In this document: in pieces, positions 23,175 to 39,755 of the stretch | Position numbering within the stretch: the first letter of the stretch is position 1 | Layout: every line of letters starts with the position of its first letter | From: Ascidiaceihabitans donghaensis | Lineage (GTDB): Bacteria; Pseudomonadota; Alphaproteobacteria; Rhodobacterales; Rhodobacteraceae | Reading direction: 5' to 3' | Assembly (NCBI RefSeq): GCF_900302465.1 | Contig: NZ_OMOR01000001.1 | Location: 2,170,001 to 2,234,000, forward strand | DNA length: 64,000 nt | Position numbers and translations under genes: made by a program | Notes under the pieces: generated by a model | Databases searched by the model: none | The model's input: the letters and a program-made list of their open reading frames with translations, nothing else | Told to the model about the DNA's origin: nothing

Positions 23175-23290
23175 AGTGTGACCACGGCGGGTTCCAACTT
23201 GCTCACACGTGTCGCTCTACAACCAAATGCTTGCGATGCGGAAAACAATCCGTCATATTCCTATAAAAGAATTTATAAGGGGATATGCCG

Positions 23291-35885: not shown

Positions 35886-36362
35886 TTATTCTTCTTTGAG
35901 CGTGGCGAGATATGCCACGACGTCTTCGATTTGCTGGGCGCTCAGAAGTGGGCCAAACGTGTCGTCCGCCGCTTTTCCTGTGTATGCGTTGCCGGGCCGG
36001 ATGAAGCCTTCGGTTTTGTAGAAAGACGGCATCATGCTGTCTTCGAACATGATTTTGGCATTGGCCACGATCCCGCGCAGCTCTGCCTCTGACCAGCGTT
36101 CGCCCGCGCCGTCCAGCGCCGGACCAATTTCGCCTTGAAACGGCACATCCGCCAAATCCGCAACCTGATGGCATGCAACGCAGTTGCCCTGCCCTTTGTC
36201 GCCCACGATGATGCGCCCGTTTGCGGCATCACCCGCCACGCCAGACAATGACTGCTCAACGGCGCCGTCGTTGAAGGCCACATTGGTTGGCAGAACTTCT
36301 TCAGCGTGCAAACCCGTCGCGGCGATCATCGTGGCCGCAACTGCAAAAATAGAATTCTTCAT
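35886..36362 (-). CDS. soxX: SoxX, monoheme c-type cytochrome
   Basis: The 158-residue protein has a Sec signal (MKNSIFAVAATMIAATGLHA) and one heme motif GNCVACHQVAD (Cys61, Cys64, His65). A Met ligand probably lies in EDSMMPSFY near residue 110. It forms the SoxXA complex with SoxA and passes electrons onward. The ATG at 36362 has GGGAGGAC upstream, fixing the start four codons inside the longer frame. It is the first gene of soxXYZA and has the putative SoxR operator in its promoter region. Confidence 0.95.
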   Translation of the reverse strand: MKNSIFAVAATMIAATGLHAEEVLPTNVAFNDGAVEQSLSGVAGDAANGRIIVGDKGQGNCVACHQVADLADVPFQGEIGPALDGAGERWSEAELRGIVANAKIMFEDSMMPSFYKTEGFIRPGNAYTGKAADDTFGPLLSAQQIEDVVAYLATLKEE

Positions 36363-36425
36363 GCGTCCTCCCAAACACTTAGCTTTGTATACCGTAGCGC
36401 ACGAAAACGTGAGGACGCAACATCA

Positions 36426-36443
36426 AATTCACTTAATTGAATT
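36426..36443. promoter_or_regulatory. Putative SoxR operator (ATTC-N8-GAAT) upstream of soxX
   Basis: AATTCA-CTTAAT-TGAATT is a perfect inverted repeat and contains ATTC-N8-GAAT, the published site type for BigR/SqrR-class ArsR repressors. It sits 64 bases before the soxX start, between soxX and soxW. An ArsR-family SoxR with the matching cysteine pair is encoded at 38250. Confidence 0.65.
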
Positions 36444-36480
36444 ATAATATTTGACTGCAAACTGCCACGCCCCAAATTTG

Positions 36481-37044
36481 TCATTTGGATTGTTCTGCAA
36501 ACTTACGTGCATGATATCGTTGGAAACTTTCTTCTCCGTCATACCCTTTTTCCACAACCCAATTCAGCATATTGAAGGTAGTGTATTGCCCAAAAGCCCC
36601 TGGCATCGTTGCAACAGACGCTTCAGCGGCGCTTTGGTCATCTGCCACTTTTTCGGGAAAAAACAGAATCATCGGGGTAAACAAAGCCCCCCATTTCCGC
36701 ACCATGTCCTTTTCCGGCAAGGTTGTGCCGTCGAAGTCTGTGACCTCTACGTCGCCAAACATGTTGATCTGAACAACAAAGTAATTGTCTTCGATAAAGG
36801 CCGCGATGTTTTCAAGCGGGAAGACATCTTCATGCATCTGCTGGCAATAGATACAGCCGCGTTGTTCAATGATCACCATCAGGCGTTTGCCTTCGGCTGT
36901 GGCCTCTTCAAGATCCTCGGACAGATCTTTGAACGTGTCCCGCATCCAAGAGGCCTTGTGCAAACCATCATCGCCCAGCTCAGCGGCATACGCCCCCGAT
37001 ACTGCAAAAATACCCATAACCCATGCCAGCAAAAACCGTTTCAT
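36481..37044 (-). CDS. soxW: SoxW, periplasmic thioredoxin
   Basis: This 187-residue protein has a signal peptide (LLAWVMGIFAVSGAYA) and a thioredoxin fold with the redox motif QRGCIYCQQMHEDVF (Cys64, Cys67), followed by PENIAAFIEDNYF-like sequence and the cis-Pro segment LFTPMILFF. It should be reduced by SoxV and keep Sox proteins in their thiol form. The ATG at 37044 has AAAGGAGC upstream. It is 17 bases after soxV, and is separated from soxX by about 118 AT-rich bases that hold the SoxR-type operator. Confidence 0.92.
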   Translation of the reverse strand: MKRFLLAWVMGIFAVSGAYAAELGDDGLHKASWMRDTFKDLSEDLEEATAEGKRLMVIIEQRGCIYCQQMHEDVFPLENIAAFIEDNYFVVQINMFGDVEVTDFDGTTLPEKDMVRKWGALFTPMILFFPEKVADDQSAAEASVATMPGAFGQYTTFNMLNWVVEKGYDGEESFQRYHARKFAEQSK

Positions 37045-37060
37045 GCCTGCTCCTTTCAAA

Positions 37061-37801
37061 TTAACGCAACACACCGATGTCCGGTCCGACTTCAAGCATC
37101 CATTGCGCGATGATGTTCATAGAATTGGTGGCGATCAGAAGGCCAAAAACAATCAGCAACACGCCCATGATTTTTTCAATCAGCCCCAAATGCCTGCGAA
37201 AACCGGACATCCAACGCATGAAAGGCCCGATAAACAGTGCCGCCAAAACAAACGGGGCTGTCATGCCCAAACCATACACAAACAACAGCAATGCCCCGTG
37301 TGACGCGGTATCAGACCCCGCGGCCGTGAATAAAATCGCGGCCAGTACTGGCCCCACACAGGGGGTCCAGCCAAAGGCAAAGGCCAGCCCGATCACATAG
37401 GCCCCCACAAGGCTGACACTTGAGGTGGCCCCGGTGTCCGCCCGCAATTGGCGATACAGAATGCCGATCCGTAAGACGCCCAGAAAATGCAGTCCCATTG
37501 CAATGATGATCGCCGCCGCAATCCAGCGCAAAACATCGAAGTAGTCCCGAACAACCTGCCCAAAAACAGTGGCCGCCGCCCCCAGCCCCATGAAAATGGT
37601 GATGACACCAGCCGCAAAAAAGCAAGCTGCCAAGACGGCCCGTCCACGCGTTTTGCTGTCGATGTCTGCATCTGCGCTGATCTGGTTCATGCCCACACCT
37701 GCCAGATAACTGAGGTAAAAAGGCACGATGGGCAGAATGCAGGGCGACAAAAAGGACAGCAATCCGGCAAACGCCGCACCTGCAAACGTGATATCCAACA
37801 T
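37061..37801 (-). CDS. soxV: SoxV, CcdA-type thiol-disulfide transporter
   Basis: This 246-residue membrane protein has about six helices and the CcdA/DsbD-beta pattern: LLSFLSPCILPIVPFYLSYLAG near residues 15-36 carries the first membrane Cys, and LAFAFGWTPCVGPVLAAIL near 150-168 the second. It moves reducing equivalents from cytoplasmic thioredoxin to periplasmic SoxW. It is the first gene of the minus-strand string and diverges from soxS with 70 AT-rich bases between, where a partial SoxR-like site lies. Confidence 0.93.
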   Translation of the reverse strand: MLDITFAGAAFAGLLSFLSPCILPIVPFYLSYLAGVGMNQISADADIDSKTRGRAVLAACFFAAGVITIFMGLGAAATVFGQVVRDYFDVLRWIAAAIIIAMGLHFLGVLRIGILYRQLRADTGATSSVSLVGAYVIGLAFAFGWTPCVGPVLAAILFTAAGSDTASHGALLLFVYGLGMTAPFVLAALFIGPFMRWMSGFRRHLGLIEKIMGVLLIVFGLLIATNSMNIIAQWMLEVGPDIGVLR

Positions 37802-37822
37802 GGGTGTGCCGTCCTCTTGTGT

Positions 37823-37839
37823 AATTCACATATTCATAT
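37823..37839. promoter_or_regulatory. Partial SoxR-type site between soxV and soxS
   Basis: AATTCACATATTCATAT shares the AATTCAC half with the perfect operator at 36426 and has ATAT where GAAT is expected (ATTC-N8-ATAT). Its position in the divergent soxV/soxS promoter region suggests a weaker SoxR site. Confidence 0.4.
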
Positions 37840-37871
37840 TAAGTTGTTTATTATCGAAAGGTCAATTTCAC

Positions 37872-38240
37872 ATGTTCTTCCGCCGCCTGTTTCTTGCTAT
37901 ATCCTTGCTGACTGCTTCGGTTGGCGCAGCTTGGGCTGACACCCAGCTGGTTATGGTCGAAGAAAAGGGGTGCATCTGGTGTGCAAGATGGAACGCAGAA
38001 ATTGCGCCGATCTATCCAAAAACCGAAGAAGGGGCCGCAGCGCCGCTGAGGCGGATGGATATTCGCGCCAAACGGCCCGATGATATCACTTTTGCGCGAT
38101 CCTTGACCTTCACACCCACATTTGTGCTGGTCGTGGAGGGACAGGAAATGTCACGCATAGAGGGCTATCCGGGCGAGGACTTTTTTTGGGGATTGCTTGG
38201 CAAGATGCTGTCTCAGGCCAACGTTGATATCTCAGGGTAA
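37872..38240 (+). CDS. soxS: SoxS, periplasmic thioredoxin-like protein
   Basis: The 122-residue protein has a Sec signal (LFLAISLLTASVGAAWA) and a short thioredoxin fold with EEKGCIWCARWNAEIAPIY (Cys34, Cys37) and the cis-Pro segment LTFTPTFVLVVEGQE. In Paracoccus SoxS activates the SoxYZ carrier by reducing it. The ATG at 37872 is preceded by AAAGG; a longer frame upstream would run into soxV. It is divergent from soxV and followed by soxR after nine bases. Confidence 0.92.
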   Translation: MFFRRLFLAISLLTASVGAAWADTQLVMVEEKGCIWCARWNAEIAPIYPKTEEGAAAPLRRMDIRAKRPDDITFARSLTFTPTFVLVVEGQEMSRIEGYPGEDFFWGLLGKMLSQANVDISG

Positions 38241-38249
38241 GGACAGTAC

Positions 38250-38642
38250 ATGACCACGATCAATCATTTGGACGCAGATATCGTTCCACTAAACAGAGAG
38301 AGACCTATGGGGCTTCCAGTTTTTGACGCCAATATGTGTACGGAAGACATGGACAAGATGGCTGCCAATGCCATGCAAGCCGCCAACTTCCTCAAGGCCA
38401 TCAGCCATGAGGGTCGCTTGATGATCCTGTGCCATCTGGCATCCGGCGAAAAGTCGGTCACGGAACTTGAGGAACTGCTGTCTGCACGTCAGGCCGCCGT
38501 GTCCCAACAGCTGTCCCGCCTGCGTCTGGAAGGTCTGGTTGTACCGCGGCGTGCGGGCAAGGCAATCTACTACAGTCTGGCAGATGATCGTCCCACACAG
38601 ATCATGGAAGTGGTTTATGATCTGTTCTGCCGCGACGCCTAA
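38250..38642 (+). CDS. soxR: SoxR, ArsR-family repressor of the sox genes (BigR/SqrR type)
   Basis: This 130-residue winged-helix protein has the ArsR core FLKAISHEGRLMILCHLASGEKSVTELEELL, recognition helix ARQAAVSQQLSRLRLEGLVV and wing RRAGKAIYYSL. Cys61 (ILCHL) and Cys127 (DLFC) are placed like the two cysteines of SqrR and BigR that form a per- or polysulfide link when sulfide is present, releasing DNA. A third, Cys30, lies near the N-terminus. An N-terminal tail of about 40 residues is longer than in SqrR. It is expected to repress soxV-W, soxXYZA and its own operon. Confidence 0.93.
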   Translation: MTTINHLDADIVPLNRERPMGLPVFDANMCTEDMDKMAANAMQAANFLKAISHEGRLMILCHLASGEKSVTELEELLSARQAAVSQQLSRLRLEGLVVPRRAGKAIYYSLADDRPTQIMEVVYDLFCRDA

Positions 38643-38687: not shown

Positions 38688-39755
38688 ATGGGTGACATGA
38701 TATCAGACGCTGGACTGGTGGCTTTGATTGGCACCTTTGGTGGTATTCTTTTGGGGCTGGCTGCACGGATCGGGCGGTTTTGCACTTTAGGTGCGATAGA
38801 GGATCTGTATTACGGTGAAAATCCCTTGCGGCTGCGCATGTGGGGCATCGCGATTGGCGTCTCGGTGATTGGCACATTTTCCTTGTCTTTGTTCGGTTTT
38901 CTGGACCTGCAACAAACACTGTATCTTGGGCGCGGTTGGAACCCACTGGCCAGTATCTTTGGCGGTCTGGTCTTTGGCTATGGCATGGCTTTGGCGGGCA
39001 ATTGCGGCTACGGCGCCTTGGCGCGTGTCGGCGGCGGAGATCTTCGGTCCCTTCTTATTGTTCTGGTGATGGGCATCTTTGCCTACATCGCTTTGGGCGG
39101 GCCATTGTCGGCCCTGCGCTTGTGGGTGTTTGGCAATCCCGACCTGACAAGCGATCCAACATACAACACAACAACCTTTGCACATGTCTTGGCGCACTGG
39201 ACCGGTGCGACCCCCGAAATAAGCGGCATCGTCATAGGCACGGCAATTCTGGGCTTTACCCTGTTAAGTCGTAGTTTGCGGCGCGACCCAAGTTACATTG
39301 TGTGGGGTGCTGTGGCAGGCGCGGCCATTGTTTCGGGGTGGGCAGGAACACAGTGGGTGGCGGCAACTGGCTTTGATGCGACGCCCGTCCTCAGCCACAC
39401 ATTTTCAGCGCCCATTGGCGAAACGGTTTTATATACGATGACTTCATCGGGCAATTCTATCAGTTTTGGCACCGGATCTGTTGTGGGCGTATTGCTGGGG
39501 GCCTTCCTTGGCAGCCTTTACAAAGGCCATTTTCGTTGGGAAGCCTGTGACGATCCACGCGAATTGCGCCGGCAGATTCTGGGCGCGGCCCTTATGGGGA
39601 TTGGTGCCGTTGTCGCCATTGGGTGCAGCGTGGGTCAGGGACTGTCTGCGATGTCGGTACTGGCGTTCAGTGCGCCTGTCACACTTGTGTGCATTTTGAT
39701 GGGTGCCGCAGTTGGATTGCGACAGCTTATTCTGGGCTTTGGAAAAGTGATTTAA
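38688..39755 (+). CDS. soxT: SoxT, YeeE/YedE family sulfur-compound transporter
   Basis: This 355-residue membrane protein has the DUF395 double repeat with about nine helices. Family cysteines lie in ARIGRFCTLGAIEDLYYG near residue 28, ALAGNCGYGALARVGGGDLRS near 100-120, and VAIGCSVGQGLSAMSVLAF near 308-326. Its place right after soxR matches soxT of other sulfur oxidisers, and the GCSxGQGxS motif agrees with thiosulfate transporters. Compared with the paralog at 25240 it keeps NCGYGALAR in place of RGCASRLL, so the two may differ in substrate. Confidence 0.87.
   Translation: MGDMISDAGLVALIGTFGGILLGLAARIGRFCTLGAIEDLYYGENPLRLRMWGIAIGVSVIGTFSLSLFGFLDLQQTLYLGRGWNPLASIFGGLVFGYGMALAGNCGYGALARVGGGDLRSLLIVLVMGIFAYIALGGPLSALRLWVFGNPDLTSDPTYNTTTFAHVLAHWTGATPEISGIVIGTAILGFTLLSRSLRRDPSYIVWGAVAGAAIVSGWAGTQWVAATGFDATPVLSHTFSAPIGETVLYTMTSSGNSISFGTGSVVGVLLGAFLGSLYKGHFRWEACDDPRELRRQILGAALMGIGAVVAIGCSVGQGLSAMSVLAFSAPVTLVCILMGAAVGLRQLILGFGKVI

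Follow-up and report, generated by a model that had tools for sequence, protein, structure and literature searches.

We find that the inverted repeat at 36426–36443, between soxW and soxX, is most probably (probability roughly 0.87) the main operator of the repressor SoxR, encoded at 38250–38642, from which soxX would be repressed, with a degenerate copy at 37823–37840, at soxV/soxS, and with release by sulfane sulfur via Cys61 and Cys127. This reading builds on the two sites, their conservation and geometry, how rarely they occur in the genome and how they co-vary with SoxR; binding, repression, sulfur sensing and start sites are predictions. SoxR, the switch protein that would hold the sulfur-oxidation genes silent in the absence of sulfur compounds, very probably docks at the first site. 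The support for this is unusually good, since many marine bacteria retain the site and its form changes together with SoxR. Operators of this kind are already known, and the present candidate adds a further one with very strong support; what was not expected is an operator sequence that appears to have changed with the SoxR lineage.

The window, by which we mean the whole 64,000-nucleotide stretch of DNA analysed, contains the repeat AATTCA-CTTAAT-TGAATT (AATTCACTTAATTGAATT, plus strand), formed of two six-base arms and a six-base spacer, within the 118-base soxW–soxX interval. The repeat reads back exactly as an earlier note on this DNA had claimed. Its core, 36427–36442, is an exact ATTC-N8-GAAT, the recognition consensus of the SqrR/YgaV class (excerpt of PMC9774250), in agreement with the note's assignment of the site to the sulfide-responsive ArsR repressors. 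soxX, soxY and soxA were identified by curated models, all above cut-off. soxR lies in the sox cluster, with soxSR divergent from soxVW, an arrangement already described (excerpt of PMC5748708), as is that of soxSRT (excerpt of PMC11582611). The operators and genes are as follows.

36426–36443, no strand: candidate primary SoxR operator AATTCA-N6-TGAATT, between soxW and soxX; conserved, and the single profile match in the genome
37823–37840, no strand: candidate second, degenerate SoxR operator, in the soxV–soxS interval and in register with the first
35886–36362, minus strand: soxX, the first gene after the operator (NCBIfam TIGR04485, above cut-off)
36481–37044, minus strand: soxW, thioredoxin-like, ending 37 bases before the operator; a neighbour conserved in relatives
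37061–37801, minus strand: soxV, CcdA-like
37872–38240, plus strand: soxS, thioredoxin-like, without an NCBIfam match, its position conserved in relatives
38250–38642 (alternative start 38307), plus strand: soxR, ArsR-family repressor (NF033788, above cut-off; solved relatives)
38688–39755, plus strand: YeeE/SoxT-like transporter, in a soxS–soxR–soxT arrangement (weak TsuA-model match, below cut-off)

Within the window alone, neither copy of the palindrome is significant by frequency: ATTC-N8-GAAT is found twice against 1.30 expected (at least two in 36 of 100 shuffles), and AATTCA-N6-TGAATT with up to three mismatches at 24 places against 28 expected (at least 24 in 80 of 100 shuffles). The comparison of relatives was therefore used instead. 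The other exact ATTC-N8-GAAT of the window is ATTCCTATAAAAGAAT at 23257–23272, the number being as chance predicts. Across the 4.08-Mb genome, exact ATTCA-N6-TGAAT occurs at three places, the other two of which are inside ORFs (one ferredoxin-like, one of 269 amino acids). The sole match of an operator profile to the genome was the first site, on both strands (E 0.0014 and 0.05); this search scored 150 of 1793 first-look candidates and could overlook weak sites. The idea of a wider SoxR regulon in this genome, for which the profile gave no further match among those candidates, was set aside.

The loci compared include roseobacters, Roseibium/Labrenzia, Cohaesibacter and two Rhizobiaceae MAGs. 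They were taken from a SoxW scan of named sequences (the best 80 of 381 loci encoding a relative), with further loci from whole-genome searches; rows that were partial or from another locus (L001 and L006–L009) were dropped before counting. The soxW–soxX interval was delimitable in 112 loci and usable in 110, with L037 (not delimited) and L099 (a run of N) dropped, and removal of near-copies left 84, the window's own among them. An exact ATTC-N8-GAAT is present in 104 of the 110 usable intervals (five others have one mismatch and one has two) and in 79 of the 84 non-redundant ones; Markov resamples (n = 200) averaged 0.285 and never exceeded 3. In the flanking coding DNA, the exact dyad was found in 3/84 cases in the 400 bases of soxW before the interval and in 0/84 in the first 400 of soxX. 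A seedless count of 96,877 four-mer pairs placed ATTC-N8-GAAT tied for top, and first among palindromic pairs. Conservation of the candidate operator is thus far beyond chance, and the possibility, raised in the earlier note, that the repeat is absent from all related sox clusters can be dismissed.

SoxR is an ArsR/SmtB winged-helix protein (NF033788, 81.2 bits, cut-off 55). Against the BigR equivalog model NF040642 it scores 92.9 bits (93.1 in the genome search), below the cut-off of 155, making it a relative of BigR and not BigR itself. The closest solved structures are 6o8k (E 5e-37) and the 13ct/6o8l group (E 6e-37); residues 10–109 align without gaps to the 111-residue ArsR structure 6o8k, and likewise to 13ct, with both cysteines matched. 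We take 6o8k and 13ct to be R. capsulatus SqrR. The cysteine pair that the earlier note had recognized as that of the sulfide-responsive ArsR class is present as Cys61 and Cys127 in the 130-residue reading from 38250 (Cys42 and Cys108 if the start is 38307), with a spacing of 66, and both cysteines are found in 96 of the 97 loci that have an exact operator and a complete SoxR. The start of SoxR is ambiguous, 38250 or 38307, and a third cysteine lies near the N terminus. A good ribosome-binding sequence precedes 38250; a start at 38307 gives 111 residues, the length of the solved relatives. Among 97 relatives, methionine is found at the place of 38307 in 38, at that of 38250 in 9 and three residues further in 31. 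The genome has one strong SoxR-class gene; a search of it for a second strong SoxR homologue found none, and a weak ArsR homologue is present at G000:C1:714168 (24.7 bits).

The form of the site varies with the lineage of the regulator. For this comparison 173 loci were reduced to 143 non-redundant ones, an interval with N being left out. A close SoxR was defined as complete, linked and scoring at least 145 bits, a cut-off drawn after the data had been seen, and some of the loci had been picked for a weak or missing SoxR or for its presence. Twenty loci were first taken as lacking soxR; 15 of these carry a linked divergent SoxR and were moved to the divergent class. Of the 72 loci with a close SoxR, 70 have the exact dyad, compared with 5 of the 27 with a divergent one (Fisher p 3.4e-15, not corrected for relatedness). 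In the remaining 44 loci, SoxR is cut by the locus end (22, of which 21 have the dyad) or there is no SoxR in the locus, mostly with cut flanks (22, of which 14 have it).

Loci with a divergent SoxR have ATGCA-type sites, ATAT-N12-ATAT sites or none that could be named. In a Paracoccus-type clade, ATAT-N12-ATAT replaces ATTC-N8-GAAT and the recognition-helix Ala is replaced by Val/Ile: where Val/Ile occupies the sixth residue of the helix string SARQAAVSQQL, the site is ATAT-N12-ATAT (6/6 loci), and Val/Ile is found in 0/118 others scored. Three further Paracoccus plasmids agree, with ATAT-N12-ATAT and helix Val, and a Ruegeria plasmid has helix Ala and the exact ATTC form. In all, the soxW–soxX intervals with ATAT-N12-ATAT are those of four Paracoccus plasmids (L161, L187, L188 and L191) and of L128, L171, L173, L176 and L178; where scored, their SoxR lacks a cysteine aligned with the second one. 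The plasmid of Paracoccus sp. SMMA_5_TC (L190) has helix Ala and a rearranged cluster in which soxX and soxR diverge; the interval between them shows neither operator form. Another plasmid locus, L189, the flanks of which are not a sox cluster, was left unscored. In a SoxR tree of 76 rows (a random half or so of the close SoxRs omitted; based on few columns and with 42 of its 73 inner branches left open), the ATAT group forms one clade with support 80, and the Val/Ile association therefore counts as one event. We tentatively suggest, at somewhat below even odds, that SoxR has switched DNA code within one bacterial family, with ATTC-N8-GAAT in most roseobacters examined and their Stappiaceae relatives and a wider ATAT-N12-ATAT in the Paracoccus-type clade, to which some of the earliest studied SoxRs belong. 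The switch would go with one Ala-to-Val/Ile substitution in the helix and with a second sensor cysteine missing from the aligned position, and further divergent SoxRs would face less symmetric, ATGCA-type sites.

With SoxR as query (E 1e-10), no homologue was found in four of the 23 genomes searched (G098, G133, G318 and G396). Loss of the sites was judged in G098 and G133 only, because the distant SoxW match of G318 has no neighbouring soxX and the contig of G396 ends after soxW. In both G098 (L166) and G133 (L167) the two operator sites are lost, the best match in the first interval having three and two mismatches, respectively, and the second interval being judged by eye. Both sites are also lost in L071, which has no SoxR in its flanks (at the scope of the locus only). 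G332 and G178, with only unlinked weaker homologues, have degraded first sites; G253, with a 92-bit homologue, has an exact dyad without the usual −35-like context; and G165, with a close SoxR on another contig, keeps the operator.

The palindrome could instead be the operator of a different regulator, another ArsR protein or an unrelated dimeric factor, with SoxR acting only at soxS–soxV. Besides the weak ArsR homologue mentioned above, this explanation can draw on cases that depart from a simple rule of joint loss of regulator and site: on G284 and G272 (L130 and L177), which have only unlinked weaker SoxR-like proteins (61% and 60% identity) yet a perfect first site, and on G302, G164 and G360, which have a perfect first site and no close SoxR (best E 1.4e-17, 2.7e-22 and none listed). 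The contigs of these last three genomes (L168, L123 and L023) end before the place of soxR, however, and an assembly gap may thus explain the absence. Against a different regulator, the form of the site tracks the SoxR lineage and the helix residue, the site is lost in the two judged genomes in which no SoxR homologue was found, and the consensus equals that of the SqrR/YgaV class; we consider it improbable. In favour of SoxR as the protein that reads the site are the match to the class consensus, the cysteines 66 apart, the co-variation with SoxR lineage and the loss in G098 and G133. The earlier note's central claim, that the site matches the SoxR encoded nearby, is borne out to that extent, with G284 and G272 as exceptions. 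We therefore describe the two sites as a candidate operator pair of the known SqrR/BigR/SoxR type, with SoxR as its supported reader and with binding and the response to sulfur as predictions.

Alignment of 79 loci on the dyad gives the family logo AAATTCA-nnTAnn-TGAATTT, followed by TTGTTGTTGCGT, 18 mostly variable bases and TAnGGT; columns −30 to −14 hold at most 0.42 bits. A moderately conserved block lies 7–13 bases before the dyad in relatives, all but one of its columns holding about 0.5 to 1.15 bits. The operator thus stands at a constant distance from a conserved promoter-like element reading into soxX (TTGCGT-N18-TAcGGT), and is conserved at this candidate promoter of the regulated genes, the activity of which is predicted. 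Its elements in the window are the following.

36415–36420, minus strand: soxX −35-like TTGCGT, 5 bases from the operator (conserved logo columns +22 to +27)
36391–36396, minus strand: soxX −10-like TACGGT, after a spacer of 18 (conserved logo columns +46, +47 and +51)

Counting 7 bases beyond the −10-like element, soxX transcription is likely to start at about 36384, which would place the operator centre at about −51. GTGGCA-N16-TATAAT (36468–36441, minus strand) overlaps the operator edge in the window. It is a stronger promoter match, but was set aside because it is not conserved in the family logo.

This geometry bears on whether SoxR might be an activator or dual regulator acting from the first site. 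The soxX −35-like and −10-like elements are weak compared with the E. coli consensus, neither being listed by a consensus scan, and the operator lies just upstream of the weak −35, so that activation would be possible in principle. However, the SoxR proteins of Paracoccus, Pseudaminobacter, Bradyrhizobium and Hyphomicrobium are described as repressors (excerpts of PMC10451225 and PMC5748708), and in G133 the −35-like TTGTTGTTGCGT persists although the operator is gone, which fits a repressor site. Activation is on this evidence slightly less probable still than a different regulator. The explanation that the repeat is AT-rich chance, or an RNA hairpin or terminator of soxW, can be dismissed almost entirely: ATTC-N8-GAAT is not rare in 64 kb and an RNA stem is possible (−6.7 kcal/mol), but pure chance is refuted by the conservation in 79/84 intervals, and the fold z-score is only −1.40, with no Rfam match in 35900–38400 and no listing as terminator-like.

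The second candidate operator, AATTCACATATTCATATT, lies between the divergent genes soxV and soxS, in an interval of 70 bases (37802–37871). It has three mismatches to AATTCA-N6-TGAATT and two to ATTC-N8-GAAT, both in one arm. The half-conserved copy that the earlier note had placed here is present and in register, although it ends at 37840 and not at 37839. Removal of near-copies reduced the soxS–soxV intervals from 106 to 71, of which 55 could be anchored and 16 could not. The best match to ATTC-N8-GAAT anywhere in the interval has 0, 1, 2 and 3 mismatches in 2, 41, 23 and 5 of the 71, respectively; random motif controls were made for the first site only, and these counts stand without shuffles. 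All 55 anchored intervals have the right arm GAAT, partly by construction of the anchor. Their left arm is AATC in 28, ATAT (the window's type) in 11 and ATCT in 4, the rest being rarer, and L030 and L032 have a perfect ATTC in the same register. The second site is thus conserved as the same motif, in register, in the 55/71 anchored intervals; against the first site's profile it scores 4.9 bits only. The promoter scan gave four promoter-like elements around it.

37860–37865, minus strand: soxV −35-like TTGACC
37836–37841, minus strand: soxV −10-like TAATAT, N18 from TTGACC, overlapping one operator arm
37825–37830, plus strand: soxS −35-like TTCACA, inside the other operator arm
37849–37854, plus strand: soxS −10-like TATTAT, N18 from TTCACA

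In the soxS–soxV intervals of relatives, soxV has TTGACG/C-N16-18-CATAAT/TAATAT, and soxS a promoter-like element in the opposite orientation. Promoter scores in this second interval are 10.0 and 9.4, against 8.4 in Markov resamples. In the AATC loci printed, the two −10 elements share four bases. At many roseobacter loci, the opposed soxV and soxS elements share their −10 region and resemble a bidirectional promoter under one repressor site. One SoxR dimer at the second site would cover both promoters.

We propose that a reduced SoxR dimer would sit on the first palindrome, next to the −35-like element and centred some 51 bases upstream of the probable soxX start, and would block RNA polymerase at the soxX promoter, keeping soxX and the sox genes behind it off. 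On the degenerate copy, SoxR would overlap the divergent soxV/soxS promoter-like elements and restrain soxVW together with its own soxSR(T) operon. Sulfane sulfur, probably imported by the SoxT/YeeE-like protein, would bridge Cys61 and Cys127, and SoxR with bridged cysteines would leave both sites, allowing the cluster to be transcribed. The first site would provide a base-precise, widely shared candidate operator for the thiosulfate-oxidation switch of marine roseobacters, so that sox induction may be predictable from sequence. Because operator variants occur in nature alongside a corresponding helix change, the specificity of SoxR lends itself to direct tests.

Among the titles and abstract openings of the matches listed, no report of a roseobacter SoxR motif or of a SoxR operator switch was seen, most subscription papers being outside the scope of that search; the excerpt of a 33-regulator survey (PMC5343134) has no SoxR or BigR entry that we found. 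The first site shares ATTC-N8-GAAT with SqrR of Rhodobacter capsulatus and YgaV of Escherichia coli, whose described targets are sulfide-response genes or their own operon, whereas the site presented here is in the sox cluster; YgaV also binds a katG site that lacks this motif (excerpt of PMC9774250). Structurally, SoxR is also matched by YgaV (3cuo) and by BigR of Xylella/Agrobacterium, an ArsR-family sulfide sensor (3pqj), although it falls below the BigR model cut-off. SqrR is presumably among its closest solved structures, as 6o8k. The overlapping soxV/soxS −10 layout of the AATC loci resembles E. coli bidirectional promoters (excerpt of PMC12825309).

SoxR and sHdrR of Hyphomicrobium denitrificans have two cysteines 66 apart, as here (Cys50 and Cys116 in its SoxR), release DNA with polysulfide and bind sox intergenic regions; the excerpts give no ATTC-type consensus for either (PMC10451225 and PMC12423496). 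That organism has a truncated Sox system and sHdrR as a second repressor, whereas one strong gene only is present here. SoxR-bound promoter–operator segments are described in the sox clusters of Paracoccus and Pseudaminobacter salicylatoxidans (Rother 2005 and Mandal 2007, as cited in an excerpt of PMC10451225). These systems resemble the one presented here in having an ArsR-family SoxR, soxSR divergent from soxVW and operators inside the sox cluster. Mandal 2007 reportedly showed a soxW–soxX operator in Pseudaminobacter. By contrast, the four Paracoccus plasmid loci with a soxW–soxX interval, compared by interval sequence and not by footprint, have ATAT-N12-ATAT and a helix Val in place of the ATTC-N8-GAAT found here, suggesting that Paracoccus results may not be transferable base for base to roseobacters.
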